A stretch of 64,000 nt of DNA from the NCBI RefSeq assembly GCF_009834345.1, contig NZ_CP035042.1, positions 2,604,001 through 2,668,000 on the forward strand, in the 5' to 3' direction. The notes below the pieces were generated by a model. The model was given only the letters and a program-made list of their open reading frames with translations, did not search any database and was not told where the DNA came from. Made by a program: the position numbers and the translations under genes. Positions 345 through 9,674 of this stretch are shown here, piece after piece; positions within the stretch are counted from its first letter, which is position 1; every line of letters starts with the position of its first letter. This stretch comes from Billgrantia tianxiuensis. Lineage in GTDB: Bacteria > Pseudomonadota > Gammaproteobacteria > Pseudomonadales > Halomonadaceae.

Positions 345-450
345 CCGCGGACAGGCCTATGAGGAGGCGCTGTGAACCCATCCCTGGGCGCTACTTTTGC
401 CATCCCTGGCAAAAGACCTCCTCTTCGGCCTGCCCCCGGCGCCCCTCGCT
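345..450. repeat. Structured intergenic repeat, copy A
   Basis: This 106-bp element is 85% identical (90 of 106 positions) to a second copy at 9569-9674. It can fold into an outer stem (349-367 with 417-435, 16 of 19 paired) enclosing two hairpins. One is CCCA-TCCC-TGGG at 377-388. The other is a perfect 9-bp stem with a TCCC loop at 394-415. Several differences between the copies preserve pairing, so the structure itself seems to be under selection. The element lies between uvrB and nei. It encodes nothing convincing. Confidence 0.8.
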
Positions 451-638
451 CCGTGGCATTCTGACTCCTCGATATACGTAAGAGCATCTGTGGATTGGCG
501 TCGCGAGCGAAGAGAGGTTGCCCGCCGCCGGAGCGCAGCAACCGGAGTTGACTTGCTGCTCAATGAGGATTGCGACGGTTCGACGCCTCGATACCGCCGG
601 CGGGCAAGATATCGAGCGCAGCAGGCACTCAACGGCGC
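451..638. other. Non-coding remainder of the uvrB-nei gap
   Basis: No gene is supported here. Two nested inverted pairs can be seen: CTCGATAT (468-475) with ATATCGAG (609-616), and TTGCCCGCCG (519-528) with CGGCGGGCAA (597-606). The nesting suggests a second folded or decayed mobile-element-like unit of about 150 bp, but the loops are long and there is no second copy in the window, so this is only a suggestion. Confidence 0.35.
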
Positions 639-2660
639 CTACCCCAAAGCCAGCTGCCGCTCCTTGAGCTCATGCAGCCGGTCTCGCAGCCTGGCCGCCT
701 CCTCGAACTCCAGGTTCTGAGCCGCCTCGAACATGGCATCCTCGACCCGCGAGACCTCCTTGGCCAGATCGGTCGGTGAGAGTTCGCCGAGATCGTAGAT
801 CGCCGCGCCCTCGGCCACCTTGCGCTCGCTGCGCCGCCCCTTGCCCTTGCGTCCCGGGGCCTGGGCCGCCTCCATGATGTCGGCCACCGAGCGCGTCACG
901 GTGGTGGGCGTAATGCCGTGCTTCTCGTTGTGGGCGATCTGCTTGGCGCGGCGCCGCTCGGTCTCGTCGATGGCGCGGCGCATGGAATCGGTCACCCGGT
1001 CGGCATAGAGGATCGCCTTGCCGTGGGCGTTGCGCGCCGCCCGGCCGATGGTCTGGATCAGAGAGCGCTCGTTGCGCAGGAAGCCCTCCTTGTCGGCATC
1101 GAGGATCGCCACCAGCGAGACCTCGGGGATGTCGAGGCCCTCGCGCAGCAGGTTGATGCCCACCAGCACATCGAACTTGCCCAGGCGCAGGTCGCGGATG
1201 ATCTCCACCCGCTCCACCGTATCGATGTCCGAGTGCAGGTAGCGCACCCGCACGTCGTGTTCGTCGAGGTACTCGGTGAGGTCCTCCGCCATGCGCTTGG
1301 TCAGGGTGGTGACGAGTACCCGCTCGCCCACCTCGGCGCGCAGGCGAATCTCGGAGAGCAGGTCGTCGACCTGGGTCGAGGCCGGACGCACCTCGATCTC
1401 GGGATCGACAAGCCCGGTGGGGCGCACCACCTGCTCCACCACCTGGCCGGCGTGCTCGGCCTCGTAGGGCCCCGGGGTGGCCGAGACGAAGATCGTCTGC
1501 GGGCAGATGCGTTCCCACTCCTCGAAGGTCATCGGGCGGTTGTCCAGCGCCGAGGGCAGGCGGAAGCCGTACTCGACCAGGGTCTCCTTGCGCGAGCGGT
1601 CACCCTTGTACATGCCGCCGACCTGAGGAACGCTGACGTGGGATTCGTCGATGAACAGCAGCGCGTCGTCCGGCAGGTAGTCGAAGAAAGTGGGCGGCGG
1701 CTCTCCGGGATTGCGGCCCGAAAGATAGCGCGAGTAGTTCTCGATGCCGTTGCAGTAGCCCAGCTCGTTCATCATCTCGAGGTCGTAGAGGGTGCGCTGC
1801 TCCAACCGCTGGGCCTCGACCAGGCGGTCGTTCTTGCGCAGCCACTCCAGGCGTTCGACCAGCTCGGCCTTGATCGCATCGGCGGCCGAGATGATCGTCT
1901 CCCGCGGCGTCACGTAGTGGCTCTTGGGATAGATGGTCATGCGCGGCACCTGGCCGCGCACTTCACCGGTAAGCGGGTCGAACAGCCGGATCGAGTCGAT
2001 CTCGTCATCGAACAGCTCGACCCGCACCGCTTCCTCGTCGGAATCGGCCGGGTAGATGTCGATCACGTCGCCACGCACCCGGTAGGTACCACGCTTGAAG
2101 TCCATGTCGTTGCGGGTGTACTGCAGCTCGGCCAGGCGGCGCAGGAAGCTGCGCTGATCGATCAGCTCGCCGCGGGTGAAGTGCAGGCGCATCTTCAGGT
2201 ACTGGTCGGGATCGCCGAGGCCGTAGATCGCCGAGACCGAGACCACGATCAGCGCATCGCGGCGTTCGAGCAGCGCCTTGGTCGCCGACAACCGCATCTG
2301 CTCGATGTGGTCGTTTATCGAGGCATCCTTCTCGATGAAGGTATCCGACGAGGGAACGTAGGCTTCCGGCTGGTAGTAGTCGTAGTAGGAGACGAAGTAT
2401 TCGATGGCGTTATCGGGGAAGAAAGACTTGAACTCCCCGTAGAGCTGCGCAGCCAGGGTCTTGTTGGGCGCCATGACGATGGTGGGCCGCTGCAGCCGCT
2501 CCACCACGTTGGCCATGGTGAAGGTCTTGCCCGAGCCGGTCACGCCAAGCAGCGTCTGGTGGGCCAGCCCGGACTCGAGCCCCCGAATCAGGCCTTCTAT
2601 GGCGGAAGGCTGATCGCCAGCGGGCTTGAAGTTGGCATTGAGGCGAAACGGCTTGCTCAT
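639..2660 (-). CDS. uvrB: Excinuclease ABC subunit B
   Basis: UvrB is the damage-verifying helicase of nucleotide excision repair. UvrA loads it on DNA and it recruits UvrC. The 673-residue protein has Walker A GVTGSGKT at about residues 39-46, the beta-hairpin region [20 protein letters not shown] near residue 95, a LLFIDESH Walker B, the helicase motifs [12 protein letters not shown] and QTIGRAARN, and a C-terminal UVR motif ([14 protein letters not shown]) that contacts UvrC. The ATG at 2660 is chosen because GGGAGC lies just upstream; a TTG 12 bases earlier would add four residues. Length and motifs are normal for the family, and the gene is intact. Confidence 0.98.
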
Positions 2661-2680
2661 GGCAGCTCCCAACAGGCCTC

Positions 2681-2698
2681 AGGCGCCGAAGGGCGCCT
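2681..2698 (-). terminator. GC-rich hairpin between the osmC-like gene and uvrB
   Basis: AGGCGCC-GAAG-GGCGCCT forms a perfect 7-bp stem with a GNRA-like loop, extended by imperfect CAGGCC/GGCCTG flanks. It lies downstream of the OsmC-like gene on the minus strand and just upstream of the uvrB start. No U-tract follows, so it may be a weak terminator or part of the uvrB leader. Confidence 0.35.
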
Positions 2699-2751
2699 GG
2701 CCTGGTATCAACGTCCAATGTAGCCGCTATTGCGGCGGTGACGCAGAAAGG

Positions 2752-3174
2752 CTACGCCCCGGCGATAGCGGCGCTGCTCGTGGTGACCTCCACAGTGGCA
2801 CTGGTCATAAGGCGATGGATGGGGCACTTGTCGCTGATCTCCTCCAGCCGCGCCCGCTGATCGGCATCCTCGATGCCATGAAAGGTCATCACCACTTCGA
2901 GTCGGTAAACGCCCTTGCGTTCCTCGCTGTCGTCGCGGTTGATCCTGACGCTGATCCCCTCGAGCGGCCACTGCTTGCGCCGGGCGTACATCTGGGCAGT
3001 GATCGCCTTGCAGGCACCAAGCGAGAGGTCGAAATAGTCATGCGGGTCCGGTGCACTCCCCTCGCCGCCGAAGGCCACGGGCACATCAGAGTAGAGATCC
3101 TCGAACCCTTCAATATGGACCCGCTGACGAAAGATGCTGTTGCGCTCGCTGACGATCTCGATGGACTTGTGCAT
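2752..3174 (-). CDS. OsmC/Ohr family peroxiredoxin-like protein
   Basis: This 140-residue cytosolic protein has the OsmC fold signature. One conserved cysteine is in LSLGACKAITAQMYARRK (Cys55) and the second is in ISDKCPIHRLM near residue 118, the pair that forms the redox centre reducing organic hydroperoxides. The SDVPVAFGGEGSAPDPHDYF stretch places it in the broad OsmC/YhfA-like branch rather than classical Ohr. The ATG at 3174 fits the family start; an upstream in-frame extension looks non-native. It lies 16 bp downstream of a small HMA-like gene on the same strand, so the two are probably co-transcribed. The substrate is unknown. Confidence 0.88.
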   Translation of the reverse strand: MHKSIEIVSERNSIFRQRVHIEGFEDLYSDVPVAFGGEGSAPDPHDYFDLSLGACKAITAQMYARRKQWPLEGISVRINRDDSEERKGVYRLEVVMTFHGIEDADQRARLEEISDKCPIHRLMTSATVEVTTSSAAIAGA

Positions 3175-3190
3175 GAACGATTCCGCTCGG

Positions 3191-3388
3191 TTACTTGATC
3201 TCGATGGGAAGCTTGAGAGCCTGGACGGCACGAATCAGCGCCTCGCGACTGACGCGCCCTTCCACTTCCGCCCCATGGCGCCCCACCTCGGCGCTCTCCA
3301 CGCCATCCACCATCATCAGGGCCGTGGTAATGCGGTTGACCTGGTCGGCGTTCTCCACGCCACTGAAACTGAGCGACTGCTGTGGCAT
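3191..3388 (-). CDS. Small HMA-fold-like protein lacking the CxxC metal motif
   Basis: This 65-residue protein (MPQQSLSFSGVENADQVNRI...) has the beta-alpha-beta pattern and the VDGVESAEV turn of heavy-metal-associated domains, but no cysteine at all. It therefore probably does not bind copper as CopZ-type chaperones do. The ATG at 3388 has a good GGGGAG ribosome-binding site seven bases upstream. The alternative ATG at 3406 has none. The stop is 16 bp before the OsmC-like gene, which suggests an operon. The function is not known; an HMA-like fold used for protein contact is one possibility. Confidence 0.7.
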   Translation of the reverse strand: MPQQSLSFSGVENADQVNRITTALMMVDGVESAEVGRHGAEVEGRVSREALIRAVQALKLPIEIK

Positions 3389-3526
3389 GCCTGACTCCCC
3401 GGGCATGGAATAGGAAAGCACGAGTCTAACATGGCAACCCTGAAGCGGCAGCCGCTTGCATTCCCGCCGCCCTGCCCGCATACCATTGGCCATATCCCTG
3501 ACATGACGACCCGGAGCCATACAGGC

Positions 3527-4567
3527 ATGAACGATTGGATAACCGCCCTGGAAGGGCGATACCTGAGCGACGAGCGGGTGACGTTCGACACCTCCGAGCC
3601 CGCCCGCCAGGCCATGGAGCGTACCGTCATCACCCCACTCGTTCACCTTGGCGTGCTGGATGTCAGCGGCCCTGGTGCCGACAAGCTGCTACAGGGCCAG
3701 ACCAGCGCCCAAGTCGATCTCGCCAATGGCAGCTTCGCCCCGCTGACCTGCTTCTGCAGCGCCAAGGGGCGCATGCTGGCCAACGCTCAGTTGCTGCGCA
3801 TCGATGCCGAGCGCTACCGCCTGATCCTGCATCGCGGCCTGCTCGAGCCGCTGCGCGACCACCTGAAGAAGTTCGCGCCGTTCTACAAGAGCGAACTTGC
3901 CATCCGCGACGATCTGGTACTGCTGGGGCTGATCGGCAAGGAAGCCCAGGCCCTGGCGGAAGTCCGCTTCGATGCCGTCCCGCCCGCCGTCTGGCACCAG
4001 TCGGGAGACGAGACGGTGCAACTGCTGGCCCACCCGGGGCCACAGCATCGGCTGCTGGCCTGCCTGCCGCTGGAGCAGGCCGAGGCAGTCGCCACCCGGC
4101 TCAGCGAACAGGCGGCTCCGGTCGGCAACGCCGTGTGGTGCCTGCAGGACATCCAGGCCGGGCTCGCCTGGCTGACGCCAGCCCACCAGGATGCTCTGCT
4201 GCCGCAGATGATCAACTGGGAGGCGCTGGGTGGCATCAGCTTCAAGAAGGGCTGCTACACCGGCCAGGAAGTGGTGGCACGTGCCCACTTCCGCGGCCAG
4301 GTGAAGAAGCGCCTGGCCCGCGCGCAGTTGGAAGGAAGCCGGCTGCCCGAACTCGGCGCCAGCGTGGTCGATGCCGATGGCAAGGCTGCAGGTGAGATCG
4401 TGGCAGCAGAGCTCGATGCCTACGGTCAGGCCGAAATTCTCGCCGTACTCACCACCCGGGAGGATATCGGACCACTCAGCGTCGACGGTCAGGCCGTCAA
4501 ATTGCTGAAGCTGCCCTACCCGATCGAGCGTCTCGACCCGGAGAACCTGACCCAGGCAAGCGCCTAG
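3527..4567 (+). CDS. ygfZ: YgfZ/GcvT-like folate-binding protein (Fe-S cluster repair, tRNA modification)
   Basis: YgfZ is a tetrahydrofolate-binding protein of the GcvT fold that supports iron-sulfur enzymes such as the tRNA methylthiotransferase MiaB. The 346-residue product carries the signature KGCYTGQEVVAR (K-G-C-Y-T-G-Q-E) with its functional cysteine, and the N-terminal folate-domain segment LLQGQTSAQVD. The start at 3527 (MNDWITALEG) matches the family; further upstream ATGs would add a non-homologous tail. The gene converges on the TatD-type hydrolase: both stop codons are the TAG halves of one CTAG palindrome at 4564-4567. Confidence 0.94.
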   Translation: MNDWITALEGRYLSDERVTFDTSEPARQAMERTVITPLVHLGVLDVSGPGADKLLQGQTSAQVDLANGSFAPLTCFCSAKGRMLANAQLLRIDAERYRLILHRGLLEPLRDHLKKFAPFYKSELAIRDDLVLLGLIGKEAQALAEVRFDAVPPAVWHQSGDETVQLLAHPGPQHRLLACLPLEQAEAVATRLSEQAAPVGNAVWCLQDIQAGLAWLTPAHQDALLPQMINWEALGGISFKKGCYTGQEVVARAHFRGQVKKRLARAQLEGSRLPELGASVVDADGKAAGEIVAAELDAYGQAEILAVLTTREDIGPLSVDGQAVKLLKLPYPIERLDPENLTQASA

Positions 4568-5331
4568 GGCAAGTCCAAGCCGAACACCCGCTTGGCGGTC
4601 GCCGTGCTCTGGGCGGCGACCGCCTCCGTGGTCTCGCCGCGCAGCTTCGCCACCATTTCGCAGACCTGGACGATGCGTGCCGGCTCGTTGCGCTGCCCCT
4701 GGTAGCCGCACAGCGGCATGTCGGGGCTGTCGGTCTCGAGCACGAAGCCATCCTCGGGCAGGCTCTTCACCGCGCGCCACAGGCGCTGGGCGCGTTCGTA
4801 GGTGACCGCACCACCCAGCCCCACCACGAAGCCGAGGTCGAGAAACTTCCAGGCCTGATCCGGCGAGCCGGCGAAAGCGTGAATCAAACCGCCCGCTGGG
4901 AGATCGAGCTGGCGCAGCCGCTTCGAGACCTTGTCGTTGGCGTGCACGCAGTGGATCACCACCGGCAGGTGGCGCGCCTTGGCCAGACGCAACTGGGCAC
5001 TGAACAGCTCCCACTGGTCGTCCAGGGTCTCTTCGAAGCGCGCGTCGATGCCGCATTCGCCCAGCGCCCGCACCTCGGGATGATCATCCAGCATTTGCGC
5101 CAGCGCCTCGACGTCGCCCTCGCCGTGTTCATGCATGAAATAGGGATGAAGACCCAGGCTGACGTGGACGTCATCGCGCTGGCCGAGCGCCAGCACGTCG
5201 GGCCAGCGCTCGCGAGTGGTACCCGGCACCATGAAGTGGCCGACACCGGCCGTCCTGGCGCGGTCGAACATCGCTTCGCGGTCGTCGTCGAAGGCCTCGA
5301 AGTCGAGATGACAGTGGGCGTCGATCAACAT
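4564..5331 (-). CDS. yjjV: TatD-family metal-dependent hydrolase (YjjV-like)
   Basis: This is a 255-residue TIM-barrel metallohydrolase. Metal ligands are recognisable as DAHCHLD at residues 4-10, GECGID (Glu), VVIHCVHAND (His), GLIHAF (His) and ETDSPDMP (Asp). The segment DSPDMPLCGYQGQRNEP is close to the YjjV branch rather than TatD itself. TatD relatives act as DNases or D-aminoacyl-tRNA editing enzymes; the YjjV substrate is unsettled. The ATG at 5331 (MLIDAHCH) is the natural family start. Its stop codon overlaps that of ygfZ by 4 bp tail to tail. Confidence 0.92.
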   Translation of the reverse strand: MLIDAHCHLDFEAFDDDREAMFDRARTAGVGHFMVPGTTRERWPDVLALGQRDDVHVSLGLHPYFMHEHGEGDVEALAQMLDDHPEVRALGECGIDARFEETLDDQWELFSAQLRLAKARHLPVVIHCVHANDKVSKRLRQLDLPAGGLIHAFAGSPDQAWKFLDLGFVVGLGGAVTYERAQRLWRAVKSLPEDGFVLETDSPDMPLCGYQGQRNEPARIVQVCEMVAKLRGETTEAVAAQSTATAKRVFGLDLP

Positions 5332-5371
5332 CCGTGTCGTGCTCCCTTGCGTGATAATGGCCACGCCTGAG

Positions 5372-5392
5372 CCCGAGTCACTCCGACTCGGG
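5372..5392 (-). terminator. Hairpin overlapping the mscL stop codon
   Basis: CCCGAGTC (5372-5379) and GACTCGGG (5385-5392) form a perfect 8-bp stem with a 5-base loop that includes the last codons and stop of mscL. No U-run follows on the minus strand, so intrinsic termination is uncertain. Confidence 0.3.
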
Positions 5393-5866
5393 TTGCATCG
5401 CAGGCAACTGCGAGGTGCAGGCCGGACAGCGGGTAGCCGGTATGGGGATTTTGCTCAGGCAGTAAGGACAATCCTTGACCGTCGGCGCCGCCGCCGTCTC
5501 GGGAGGATAGGCGAGGTTCTTGAGCCGATTGATGTTGCGGATCAGCAGGAAAGTGGCGAAAGCAACGATCAGGAACGACAGTACGGCATTGAGGAACAGA
5601 CCGTAGTTGAGCGTCACCGCGCCGGCCGCCTGGGCCTGTTCCAGAGTGTGGTAGACCTCGTCGCCAGGACCGTCACGCAGCACCAGGAACTGGTTGGTAA
5701 AGTTCATCCCACCCGTCGCCAGGCTGATCAACGGGGTGAACACATCCCGCACCAGACTGTTGACGATGGAAGTGAAGGCGGCGCCGATGATGATGCCCAC
5801 CGCCATGTCTACCACGTTCCCCTTGACCGCAAACTCGCGGAACTCCTTCAGCATCTTCGATGCCAT
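5378..5866 (-). CDS. mscL: Large-conductance mechanosensitive channel MscL with C-terminal zinc ribbon
   Basis: MscL is the inner-membrane emergency valve that opens on hypo-osmotic shock, which is relevant to a halophile. TM1 is at about residues 16-45 ([16 protein letters not shown], the gating helix) and TM2 at about 88-110. The protein has 162 residues, while E. coli MscL has 136. The extra length is a C-terminal double CxxC module, Cys133/136 and Cys147/150 (CPYC and CPAC), which looks like a zinc ribbon and replaces the usual amphipathic helix. The periplasmic loop is also long. The start ATG at 5866 is preceded by a GAGAG site. Confidence 0.96.
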
Positions 5867-5915
5867 TGGAATCTCTCCCCAACCTCACACTGAGTCGCCA
5901 CCTGGCCTGCTCGAC

Positions 5916-7505
5916 TCAGTGCTCGCGGGTTGCCGCAAAGCGAATCTCCGGCCAGCGCTCCTGGGTCATCTGCAGATTGACCCTCGTGGGGGCAATATAA
6001 GTCAGGTAGCCGCCGCCATCCAGCGCCAGGTTGGCGCTCGCCTTGCGCTTGAACTCCTCGAGTTTCTTGGCGTCGTCGCAGTAGATCCAGCGCGCGGTCT
6101 GCACGTTGACCGGCTCGTAGACGCAATCGACCTTGTACTCCTCCTTGAGGCGATGCGCGACCACGTCGAACTGCAGGGTGCCCACGGCGCCGAGAATCAA
6201 GTCGTTGTTGTCCAGCGGCTGGAACAGCTGGGTGGCGCCCTCCTCTGAGAGCTGCTGGAGCCCCTTCTGCAGCGCCTTGAGCTTGAGCGGATCCTTGAGT
6301 TGCACACGCTTGAACAGCTCCGGGGCGAAGTGCGGAATGCCGGTGAAGCGCATGTCCTCGCCCATGGTGAAGGTATCGCCGATCTGGATGGTGCCGTGGT
6401 TGTGCAAGCCGATGATGTCACCGGGCCAGGCCTCCTCGACGTGGGCGCGGTCGGAGGCCATGAAGGTGAGGGCATCGGCAATCTTGACGTCCTTGCCGAT
6501 ACGCACGTGGCGCATCTTCATGTTCTTCTCGTACTTGCCCGAGCACACCCGCAGGAAGGCGATGCGATCGCGATGCTTGGGGTCCATGTTGGCCTGGATC
6601 TTGAAAACGAAGCCGGTGAAGCGCGAGTCCTCGGCCTCCACGGTACGGGTGTCGGTCTCGCGCGGCTGCGGCGACGGCGCGTATTCGACGAAGCCGTCGA
6701 GCATCTCGCGCACGCCGAAGTTGCCCATGGCGGTACCGAAGTAGACCGGGGTCAGCTCACCGCGACGGTAGGCGTCGAGATCGAACTCGTGAGAAGCGCC
6801 GCGCACCAGTTCCACCTCCATGCGCAGCTCCTCGGCCTGCTCGGCACCCAGCACCTCGTCGACCTCGGGGTTGTCGAGCCCCTCGATGCGCTTGTCGTCC
6901 GGGATACGGTTGCCCTGCCCCTGGGTGTAGAGATGAATCACGTCGTTGTAGAGGTGATAAACGCCCTTGAAGTGGCGCCCCATGCCGATCGGCCAAGTCA
7001 TGGGCGCACACTGGATGTTCAGCACCGTCTCCACTTCGTCCATCACCTCGATGGGATCGCGGATGTCGCGGTCCATCTTGTTGACGAAGGTGAGGATCGG
7101 CGTAGTGCGCAGGCGGCACACTTCCATCAGCTTGATGGTGCGCTCTTCGACACCCTTGGCACCGTCGATCACCATCAGCGCCGAATCCACCGCCGTCAGC
7201 GTGCGGTAGGTGTCTTCGGAGAAGTCCTCGTGCCCCGGCGTGTCGAGCAGGTTGACCATGCGCCCGCCATAGGGGAACTGCATCACCGAGGTGGTCACCG
7301 AGATACCCCGCTCCTGCTCCATCTTCATCCAGTCGGAGGTAGCGTGGCGGTCGTTGCGCTTGCTCTTCACCGAACCGGCGAGCTGGATGGCATTTCCGAA
7401 CAGCAGCATCTTCTCGGTAATGGTGGTCTTGCCCGCATCGGGGTGCGAGATGATGGCGAAGGTTCTACGCAGCCCGACTTCACGGGCCAGATCGGCAGCT
7501 GACAT
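5916..7505 (-). CDS. prfC: Peptide chain release factor 3
   Basis: RF3 is the translational GTPase that recycles RF1/RF2 from the ribosome after peptide release. The 529-residue protein has the G1 loop SHPDAGKTT, switch regions [13 protein letters not shown] and [16 protein letters not shown] (G4), a translational-GTPase domain II and the RF3 C-terminal domain ([23 protein letters not shown]). Its length is the same as E. coli RF3. It is transcribed divergently from regB, with a 187-bp gap. The gene is intact. Confidence 0.98.
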
Positions 7506-7692
7506 CAGATAGTTTCGTCGTCATTGGCACCGCGGGGCGGTGCGTGAATGGTGAAGTGGCACGCATTCTACGGTTTTGCCCGACTCAGTTGTAGGGCGAC
7601 GACGCGAATGGCTACTGCCGGGTTCGCGCCCAGCCTGAGCGAATGGCGGCACGACACGGTATCATGTGGGCGGATTCATCGCTGGAGCCCCC

Positions 7693-8958
7693 ATGCCAAC
7701 CGCCCCGCCCCTGCCGCTTTCCACGCCCAGCCGCAACCTGATTCGCCTGACCATCGTGCGAGGCATCACTTGGACCGGTTTCCTGGCGGCGGTCATCGTG
7801 GGTATCGAGCTGCTCCACTTCGAGCTGGAGGTACCCGCCGTCATCGGCGTGATCGTGTGCATGGGGCTGGTCAACCTGTTCACCTGGTGGCGACTCGGCC
7901 GCCAGTGGGCGGTCAGCCATACCGAATACGTGCTGCACCTGCTGGCCGACATCTTCGGGCTGACGCTGCTGTTCTACCTTACCGGCGGTTCCAACAATCC
8001 TTTCATCAACTATTACCTGGTACCGGTCACCATTGCCGCCGCCACCCTGCCCTGGCGCTACGCCTGGATCGTCGCTTCGGCGGCCATGGCCTCGTACACG
8101 CTGTTGATGTGGGATTACCATCCGGTGCCGCAGTTCGCCCATTATCACGAGGGCTTTGGCGTCAACCTGCACGTGCTGGGCATGTGGCTCAACTTTGGCC
8201 TATCGGCGGGGCTCGTGACGTTCTTCATCTTCAAGATGGCCCACGCCCTGCGCAGCCGCGAACGGGCCCTTTCCCAGACCCGCGAATCCGCTCTGCGCAA
8301 CGAGCAGATCGTCGCGGTGGCCACCCAGGCGGCAGGCACCGCCCACGAGCTGGGAACGCCGCTATCGACGATGGCGGTGCTGCTCGCCGAAATGCGCGAG
8401 GATGCTCGCGACAACCCTGAGCTGATCGAAGATATCGAATTGCTGCGTCGCCAGGTCGACGTGTGCAAATCGCGGTTGCGCCATCTGGTGGAGAGCGCCG
8501 ACCGACGGCGCATGGCCGAGCCCGAGGTGCGCGATGCGCGCGACTGGCTCCAGGGAGTCGTGCAGCGCTGGCTGGTGTTGCGCCCCGACGTCAGCTACCG
8601 CCTCGAGATCAGCGAACAGCGCGGCACGCCCTGGCTGAAGGTCGACACGACGCTGGATCAGGCCATCACCAACCTGCTCAACAACGCCGCCGACGCCAAT
8701 CCGGACGACATCAACATTCGTCTCGACTGGAACGCCGAGGAGACGGTGATCGACATCCGCGACCACGGTCCCGGCGTCACCCTGGATATTGCCGACCAGT
8801 TGGGCGAGACCTTCGTCTCGACCAAGAGCAAGGGGCTGGGCATCGGCCTGTTCCTGACCCACGCCACCATCAACCGCTTCGGCGGCGGCGTGAGGCTGTA
8901 TAATCATCCTGACGGGGGGACGCTGACTGAAGTGATCCTGCCGCACAGTGAGCCCTGA
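7693..8958 (+). CDS. regB: RegB/PrrB-type redox-sensing histidine kinase
   Basis: This is a 421-residue inner-membrane sensor kinase with about six N-terminal transmembrane segments and a cytoplasmic kinase domain. The quinone-sensing heptad GGSNNPF (98-104) matches GGxxNPF. The H-box AGTAHELGTPLSTM contains the phosphorylated His218. Cys258 in QVDVCKSRL aligns with the redox-active cysteine of RegB. The N box (ITNLLNNAADAN) and G boxes (DHGPGV, GLGIGLFLTHA) follow. The ATG at 7693 has GGAG five bases upstream. With regA 14 bp downstream it forms the two-component pair that in other proteobacteria tunes respiration and redox metabolism. Confidence 0.93.
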   Translation: MPTAPPLPLSTPSRNLIRLTIVRGITWTGFLAAVIVGIELLHFELEVPAVIGVIVCMGLVNLFTWWRLGRQWAVSHTEYVLHLLADIFGLTLLFYLTGGSNNPFINYYLVPVTIAAATLPWRYAWIVASAAMASYTLLMWDYHPVPQFAHYHEGFGVNLHVLGMWLNFGLSAGLVTFFIFKMAHALRSRERALSQTRESALRNEQIVAVATQAAGTAHELGTPLSTMAVLLAEMREDARDNPELIEDIELLRRQVDVCKSRLRHLVESADRRRMAEPEVRDARDWLQGVVQRWLVLRPDVSYRLEISEQRGTPWLKVDTTLDQAITNLLNNAADANPDDINIRLDWNAEETVIDIRDHGPGVTLDIADQLGETFVSTKSKGLGIGLFLTHATINRFGGGVRLYNHPDGGTLTEVILPHSEP

Positions 8959-8972
8959 GCGACGAGGACACC

Positions 8973-9512
8973 ATGCAAGACGCCGAAACACGCCTGCTGA
9001 TCGTCGACGACGACGAAATGTTCTGCCACGTGCTCTCCCGCGCCCTGGGCCGGCGCGGCTACGAGGTGCTGGTGGCCAACGATGCCGAGCAGGCAATCGC
9101 CCTGGCCCGCCGTCACCGCCCCGAGCTGGCCACCCTCGATCTCAAGCTGGAGCACAGCTCGGGCCTGAAGCTGCTGCCGGAGCTGCTCGAGGTGGTGCCG
9201 AGCTGTCGTGTCGTGGTGCTGACCGGCTACTCCAGCATCGCCACCGCCGTGGAAGCGATCAAGCTCGGCGCAGTCAACTACCTGTGCAAGCCCGCCGATG
9301 CCGACGAGATCCTGACCGCACTGGAGCGGGAACAGGGCGACCCGGATGCCGAGGTGGCCGACAACCCGCCCTCGATCAACCGCATCGCCTGGGAGCATAT
9401 CCAGAAGGTTCTGCAGGAGCACGACGGCAATATCTCCGCCACCGCCCGCGCCCTGGGCATGCACCGCCGCACCCTGCAGCGCAAGCTGCAGAAGCGGCCA
9501 GTGCGGCGCTGA
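8973..9512 (+). CDS. regA: RegA/PrrA/ActR-type response regulator
   Basis: This 179-residue DNA-binding regulator is the partner of RegB. The receiver domain has the acidic pocket DDDE (12-15), phospho-Asp56 in LATLDLKLE, the Thr in VVLTGYSSIATAVEAIKLGA, and Lys in YLCKPADADE. The C-terminal Fis-type helix-turn-helix, SATARALGMHRRTLQRKLQKR, is nearly invariant in RegA proteins. The gene starts 14 bp after regB, so they are co-transcribed. Downstream lies copy B of the structured repeat, which may help end the transcript. Confidence 0.95.
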   Translation: MQDAETRLLIVDDDEMFCHVLSRALGRRGYEVLVANDAEQAIALARRHRPELATLDLKLEHSSGLKLLPELLEVVPSCRVVVLTGYSSIATAVEAIKLGAVNYLCKPADADEILTALEREQGDPDAEVADNPPSINRIAWEHIQKVLQEHDGNISATARALGMHRRTLQRKLQKRPVRR

Positions 9513-9568
9513 CTTTCCAGCGTGGCGAGGTTTCGGCTGCCAGGTTGGAGGTTGACGTCGCGACTTTC

Positions 9569-9674
9569 CCGGCGACAGGTCTGCGCGGAGGCGCTGTAAA
9601 CCCATCCCTGGGCGCTACTTTTTCCTTCCCTGGAAAAAGACCTCCGCTTCGACCTGTCCCCGGTGCCGCTCGCG
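9569..9674. repeat. Structured intergenic repeat, copy B
   Basis: This is the second copy of the 106-bp element at 345-450. It lies between the convergent regA and bdhA genes. It keeps the outer stem and both inner hairpins. Compared with copy A, three stem positions have changed on both sides at once: C-G at 9586/9646 for A-T, T-A at 9580/9652 for C-G, and T-A at 9623/9634 for G-C. The CTTTTTCC/GGAAAAAG hairpin could also act as a terminator. Confidence 0.8.

Follow-up and report, generated by a model that had tools for sequence, protein, structure and literature searches.

A probable relative of the YPAL repeat in Halomonadaceae with paired hairpin loops that match the CsrA/RsmA consensus

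YPAL/RU-2, listed in Rfam as RF02770 (Ysr224), is a dispersed intergenic element of Yersinia, 167–168 bp long, in which a clamp stem carries a bulged hairpin H1 (GCCGTAAATACATCCATGTAGGC) and a second hairpin H2 (GCGCCATCCTTGGCGC). Its target duplications measure 3–26 bp, its targets span or adjoin dyad symmetry, and YPAL elements are described as co-‘translated’ (sic) with upstream genes (PMC2229807). ERIC and other enterobacterial miniature inverted-repeat transposable elements (MITEs), which we compare by description only, are likewise palindromic, intergenic and 100–170 bp long; ERIC has TA termini and a target duplication (PMC2229807). REP/BIME/REPIN sequences with RAYT (TnpA-REP) are dispersed extragenic palindromes as well, REP measuring 20–40 bp (PMC3733652). 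Here we analysed a 64,000-nucleotide stretch of Billgrantia tianxiuensis DNA (contig NZ_CP035042.1 of assembly GCF_009834345.1, positions 2,604,001 to 2,668,000), hereafter the window. It contains two copies, A and B, of a palindromic element, the Halomonas element, that is similar to YPAL in its core and whose two hairpin loops match the CsrA/RsmA consensus on one strand.

As defined by an alignment of copies (A1), a covariance model (R1) and folding, copy A occupies positions 336–450 and copy B 9560–9674 of the + strand, which we call the CATCC strand; its complement is the GGA strand. A preliminary description of the window had reported a 106-bp repeat that is 85% identical between the copies. 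The homology holds (90 of 106 positions in an ungapped comparison of 345–450 with 9569–9674), but the modelled element exceeds these limits. The letters at the pairs singled out there were as reported: pair 362/422 is A-T in copy A and C-G in copy B, 356/428 is C-G and T-A, 399/410 is G-C and T-A, and an A-C mismatch of copy A at 351/433 is A-T in copy B. To these we add a fourth two-sided change at 337/444 (G-C to C-G). Over the 33-pair consensus structure, 28 pairs are unchanged between the copies, four changed on both sides with pairing kept and one (339/442) changed on one side.

The element consists, in order, of a 5′ arm, the stretch GCnGTnAA with GTnAA unpaired, hairpin H1, a short linker, hairpin H2 (a stem of 7–8 pairs and a six-base loop) and a 3′ arm. 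In copy A the 5′ clamp arm (336–367, +) pairs with the 3′ clamp arm (416–450, +) in the consensus structure. Between them lie GCTGTGAA with its unpaired GTGAA bulge (369–376, +), which apart from one G/A position is invariant or nearly so among the 20 copies of this genome in A1, and the two hairpins given by the consensus fold and pair counts, H1 (377–388, +; CCCA TCCC TGGG) and H2 (394–415, +; CTTTTGCC ATCCCT GGCAAAAG). The hairpins of copy B lie at 9601–9612 (H1, +) and 9618–9639 (H2, +). Fold z-scores against dinucleotide shuffles were −5.3 (+) and −6.0 (−) for copy A and −5.5 (+) and −7.5 (−) for copy B.

A blastn search with copy A gave 28 matches in the 5.0-Mb genome, some of which were the two halves of one interrupted copy. 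R1, built from the 20 own copies of A1, gave 26 matches with expectation values (E) up to 1e-3, one of them (L054) short and weak and three being parts of expanded copies. The genome contains about 25 copies, A and B among them. A1 leaves out the three expanded copies and L054, the latter having come to light after the alignment was made. It also omits L008 and L021, whose 5′ arms contain a short insertion; L021 is in addition missing most of H1. Pairing was kept in 97.7% of the 655 cells of A1; 73 cells carried two-sided and 4 one-sided changes. Two-sided changes occurred in 21 of the 33 pairs (shuffled mean 9.2), which agrees with the expectation of the preliminary description that differences follow the stems. 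The covariation score was 0.355 as compared to 0.122 in shuffles and 0.037 to 0.080 when partners were slid by 1–3 columns, and none of 500 shuffles reached any of five covariation measures. A wider set of 31 varied copies had 197 two-sided cells (63 in shuffles) and a score of 0.691 (0.209 in shuffles); those from outside this genome were picked by a pattern holding the bulge and TCC letters, so only the stems are informative there. That the loops are conserved while the stems vary is an argument for use of the folded form.

R1 matched 154 of 201 Halomonadaceae genomes, this one included, so that the further copies in relatives that the preliminary description had called for do exist. The distribution is patchy: among the up to 18 matches listed per genome, two same-genus genomes had none, two had one and most others had at least or nearly 18. 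A core model (R2), made from the 31 varied copies of which 8 are from this genome, matched 49 of 229 genomes of the class under strict filters, again with this genome included. Its matches numbered 84 in a Halorhodospira metagenome-assembled genome (MAG) of 2.2 Mb, 19 in a Lysobacteraceae MAG and 37 in a Marinobacter genome. An exact core pattern was found in 45 stretches of the GTDB species collection, by record title in groups including Marinobacter, Parahaliea, Thiohalomonas, Sedimenticola, Halorhodospira, Chromatiales and further Gammaproteobacteria. The core pattern applied to the Halomonas copies is present, on the reverse strand, in the RU-2/YPAL sequence printed in Table 1b of PMC2759123. 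A GTnAA-bulged H1 and an H2 that close around nTCCnT loops on a clamp are thus common to YPAL/RU-2 and the Halomonas copies, whereas the arms differ and YPAL is longer than the Halomonas form of about 115–125 bp. The Rfam Ysr224 model matched 24 of the 229 genomes, none above its gathering score of 70 bits, and in this genome found two copies (E 1.3e-4 and 5.7e-4 per genome). Because these score 28–30 bits, under the gathering score, the Halomonas element is a relative and not a member of the Rfam Ysr224 family. We take it to be the Halomonadaceae branch of a class-wide superfamily that includes YPAL/RU-2, and it is very probably a mobile palindromic repeat related to YPAL.

The loops of both hairpins are more constant than their stems. 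Octamers were tabulated with a finder that required the bulge letters and pairing and no loop letters, and that misses copies with other bulges or small indels (19 were taken in this genome; missed copies are uncounted). It yielded 73 Halomonadaceae and 95 other copies. The octamer CNTCCNTG, variable at positions 2 and 6, was present in both hairpins of 71 of the 73 and 88 of the 95, copies that are related by descent and not independent. Of the 95, 41 came from exact-pattern loci fetched with octamer letters and the rest from blastn, covariance models or orthologous flanks, routes that make no demand on these letters; with the 41 removed, 47 of 54 carried it in both hairpins. On the opposite strand the octamer reads CANGGANG, the CsrA/RsmA consensus, and folding of both strands placed this motif in the loops of the GGA strand. 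Published forms are (A/U)CANGGANG(U/A) for the RsmE complex and RUACARGGAUGU for Escherichia coli CsrA selected in vitro (SELEX, systematic evolution of ligands by exponential enrichment; PMC6692469). Hence six fixed and two free loop positions, in both hairpins, agree with the published CsrA/RsmA site. In copy A the H1 octamer (379–386, −) and the H2 octamer (401–408, −) both read CAGGGATG; in copy B the octamers at 9603–9610 (H1) and 9625–9632 (H2, CAGGGAAG) match on the minus strand too. The CCA-TCCC-TGG type loops of the preliminary description are present, and the strand on which they were read may be the reverse of the informative one. The longer form UACARGGAUGU was found in H1 of 51 of the 95 other copies (16 of 54 without the exact-pattern loci) and 2 of the 73 Halomonadaceae copies, and in H2 of none of the 168. 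Of the Halomonadaceae copies, 72 of 73 have their two GGA 22 nt apart; of the others, 93 of 95 have a distance of 23 nt. When the window was scanned for hairpins of at least five stem pairs whose six-base loop contains CANGGANG, two were returned, the H2 of copy A and that of copy B; first-order random windows gave 0.4 on average and at most 2 (n = 20), so this count alone is weak.

We propose that the element, a mobile but non-autonomous palindrome, seeds pairs of CsrA/RsmA-type RNA sites, for the most part 3′ of genes, and put the probability of this reading at about 0.5. A clamp stem of changeable sequence carries two hairpins, each closing on CNTCCNTG with both N free. Transcription of a neighbouring gene into the element on the GGA strand would then yield an RNA with two GGA hairpins, and one CsrA/RsmA dimer could bridge both. 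The element might titrate CsrA, or it might turn the host transcript, at its 3′ end, into a ligand of CsrA; we judge the chance that the element acts as a CsrA/RsmA ligand at all to be about even. The sponge RNAs CsrB/CsrC and RsmX/Y/Z present GGA hairpins as the element does. Several such hairpins bind RsmA in RsmX/Y/Z, and each of these sponge RNAs is the product of a single gene with its own promoter and terminator. CsrB/C, too, contain several GGA hairpins that bind CsrA (PMC6232918). The element differs in having two sites per copy, in being dispersed, and in showing no promoter-like or terminator-like site at copy A. To our search of the open-licence PMC literature, no report joins CsrA with YPAL/Ysr224; PMC9029176 contains both terms, and its CsrA passages are not about Ysr224.

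The orientation of the copies is consistent with a GGA-strand transcript in Halomonadaceae. With flanking genes fixed by divergence at third codon positions, the GGA strand was the mRNA strand of both neighbours for 15 of 22 own copies and the CATCC strand for 4 (two-sided binomial, 0.019), while 3 copies lay in convergent gaps; copy B is situated between convergent genes, one of them the response-regulator gene that it follows. Two cruder gene-calling schemes gave 37 versus 11 and 26 versus 12 in favour of the GGA strand across Halomonadaceae. By the second of these, divergent gaps were rare (3 of 76 in Halomonadaceae and 7 of 83 elsewhere). As a general proof of the RNA strand, orientation was rejected, since outside Halomonadaceae it is unbiased or reversed; the argument holds for Halomonadaceae only, and less firmly by the cruder gene calls. 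Both this genome and all 11 relatives searched have a single csrA gene (12/12). In a wider comparison, a csrA match was found in 47 of 51 element-bearing genomes; its presence does not discriminate, because 18 of 20 element-free genomes also carry it.

Several observations weigh against a role as CsrA ligand. The match was spotted post hoc, and H1 and H2 may be duplicates of each other, in which case the octamer would perhaps not count as two independent matches. The GTnAA bulge is conserved as strongly as the loops and is not explained by CsrA. In other Gammaproteobacteria the two cruder schemes gave 12 GGA-sense versus 26 (p = 0.03) and 14 versus 22 (p = 0.24). No csrA match was obtained in G396, a genome 98% complete with 10 element matches and a possible counterexample, nor in G208, G269 and G300 (67–88% complete). 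Around copy A, a consensus scan of positions 200–760 found 0 promoter-like and 0 terminator-like sites. Crosslinking and immunoprecipitation (CLIP) of E. coli CsrA gave seven peaks in 3′ untranslated regions (UTRs), one of which was confirmed in vitro, and their existence speaks for the proposal; yet no post-transcriptional regulation is attached to such peaks in that report (PMC5694010); the effect could therefore be small even if binding is real.

The balance of pair types also speaks against selection on one RNA strand, because such selection should favour G.U there. Using a finder with TCC in the loop, we counted 602 Watson-Crick, 4 G.T and 10 other among 616 cells of H2 in 88 Halomonadaceae copies, and 440, 4 and 4 among 448 cells in 64 other copies. 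Together the non-Watson-Crick cells comprise 8 G.T, 5 A.C and 9 other of 1064, with no excess of G.U on the one strand or the other. In A1, the 33 pairs (635 Watson-Crick, 5 G.T, 5 A.C and 10 other cells) show no preference either. The fetched loci contained just 4 tRNAs, too few to serve as a control for the G.U share. The innermost clamp position lies outside the 33 pairs. In 20 of 20 rows of A1 it reads C.A in the CATCC sense and G.U in the GGA sense, and it contributes 74 of the 76 A.C cells counted in the clamp; as it never varies, it is weak evidence for the GGA strand.

E. coli was considered as a bridge to the CLIP data and dropped: of 5426 E. coli genomes, just 5 had RU-2-like DNA, so that no link could be made from such DNA to the CsrA peak at the 3′ UTR of ybjX. 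PMC2847712 lists 3 YPAL matches in its E. coli.

A lesser but serious possibility is that the element is an ordinary MITE-like palindrome of the YPAL kind, whose loops, bulge and stems would persist through recognition of the folded single-stranded DNA by an enzyme, with the resemblance to CANGGANG coincidental and any RNA effects incidental. The absence of a G.U preference, the lack of the orientation bias outside Halomonadaceae and the patchy distribution within the genus fit this view, and so does the turnover of copies. For 22 own copies, a set without L054 and the three expanded ones, we looked for the orthologous place in four same-genus genomes and located 86 of the 88 locus–genome pairs. 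Some copies were shared and some places empty, for instance L007, L011 and L021 in G133 and G119, and copies of opposite orientation had arrived independently in the same gap at L005 (G157), L013 (G133) and L018 (G119 and G157). In G157, only the outer tips of the element are present at L014 and L025, which represents either a deletion between flanking CCGGCG repeats or an unfilled site. Filled and empty sites were too divergent for a target duplication to be read. The preliminary description had argued that the element is not only a mobile relic; the conserved loops on varying stems speak for this, but empty, filled and independently filled sites make it mobile as well.

Insertion has also occurred within the element. 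At L020 and L013, G133 and G119 differ by a net insertion of 81 nt in the loop of H2. Very close genomes may have or lack this insert, a nested mobile module. In six expanded copies the insert carries a CATCCATG hairpin while the octamer of H2 itself is broken, so that one octamer is lost, another supplied and two sites retained, which favours the CsrA/RsmA reading. The insert, net 81 nt where its length was measured, forms a CCATCCATGG hairpin of its own at the H2 loop base; it was seen at L019, L023, L028 and L162, in G119 at L020/L013 and in G133 at L004.

Long paired arms of differing sequence likewise suit a MITE-like element. In 78 copies, mostly from outside Halomonadaceae and including L100 of this genome, a median of 28 bases was paired (quartiles 26 and 30, maximum 98), and arms reached 55 perfect pairs in loci taken from genome contigs. 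A host gene ended inside an arm in 2 of 67 copies. At L127 (about 2536–2789, Lysobacteraceae MAG) each side of the clamp is about 100 bp long. The outer part duplicates the ispA 3′ end in inverted orientation with the stop codon within the arm, the IspA protein aligns to geranyltranstransferases through its last residues, and the inner arm has three mismatches while the next ~60 positions have none. At L133 a 1326-nt open reading frame ends within a perfect 50-bp right arm, 25 nt from the core. A general origin of the arms from inverted target duplication was weakened by the many arms in G289 and G467 that are related, of similar length and with compensations.

What counts against a mere MITE-like palindrome is that the six fixed and two free loop positions reproduce a published protein site in both hairpins; the results on transposase, phage and plasmids count against it too. 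Mobilisation by RAYT was rejected: a search confined to this genome found 0 matches to Y1_Tnp (PF01797), for which 5 of 14 control genomes were positive. At about 115 bp the element also differs from REP in size. Phage carriage was rejected, as there was no phage match, and so was plasmid carriage, since the plasmid collection yielded a single record (Halomonas, 1.8 Mb, 11 places).

An unlikely third explanation is that the covariation is mostly a DNA by-product, of hairpin-templated correction or gene conversion, on a functionless relic. The uvrB flank of copy A was matched in 61 of 61 genus genomes, and 30 loci were fetched. Six of these (G000 included) hold an element with near-identical outer arms, and G155 a truncated one. 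At this site H1 occurs as CCC/GGG or ATAC/GTA and H2 as TTTTGCC, CATTCGAC, CCGATTCC or an expanded form. With nearly the same outer arms and differing H1 and H2, the hairpins have thus been replaced in place. H2 differs as a block between orthologous sites at L001, L012 and L020; arms change and yet remain nearly perfectly paired (G289, G467); and one-sided standard changes are nearly absent next to two-sided ones. Given block-wise replacement and the lack of a clear preference for G.T over A.C, the double changes are not simple evidence of pairwise selection. The interpretation in the preliminary description is thus supported in part: the differences do follow the stems, but strict pairwise selection cannot simply be read from them. 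DNA-level exchange or hairpin-templated correction probably contributes to the double changes, and block replacement together with the pair balance suggests that it operates under a constraint on the loops; as a by-product alone, it would not preserve the loop octamers or the bulge.

It is very improbable that the element is a family of small RNA (sRNA) genes read in the CATCC sense, the orientation in which Rfam draws Ysr224: a Ysr224 match on that strand (E 0.0045) and the differing expression of Ysr224 copies in Yersinia ruckeri (PMC12112432) would fit, but of the 19 own copies flanked by co-directional genes 15 have the strand antisense to both neighbours, copy A shows no promoter-like or terminator-like site and the Ysr224 matches stay under the 70-bit gathering score. 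The Rfam drawing of RF02770 is the complement of the CANGGANG strand. Ysr224 figures in a top-20 list of prevalent sRNAs (PMC9029176), and its nature as a repeat may be the reason for its place there.

In the 64-kb window no Rfam family reached its own gathering score. A second intergenic repeat of about 130 bp (493–624) adjoins copy A and was matched by the uvrB-flank query. It recurs at many further places, such as G000:C1:2539311-2539428 and 4323103-4323222, and in many same-genus genomes; the repeat at G000:C1:4323103-4323222 adjoins another copy of the palindrome. In G467, the Halorhodospira MAG, several contigs end in or beside copies, which suggests that the palindromes break short-read assemblies.

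Extended to the class, the proposal of seeded CsrA/RsmA sites becomes more tentative and falls somewhat short of even odds: a palindrome with tens of copies in some genomes may seed paired high-affinity CsrA/RsmA sites in the 3′ regions of genes, CsrA may be buffered by many host transcripts, and YPAL/Ysr224 may be a family of CsrA ligands. In the sources cited here YPAL/Ysr224 figures as a repeat and as an sRNA. Should CsrA bind the copies, the size and wiring of a global regulon would be shaped in part by a mobile repeat, and the Ysr224 sRNA family would gain a partner protein and a strand. The reason why these hairpins occur in many gammaproteobacterial genomes, with loops that hardly drift on stems that do, would become testable. 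Even without CsrA, the block-replaced hairpins of orthologous copies offer a natural system in which to follow how a palindrome rewrites itself.

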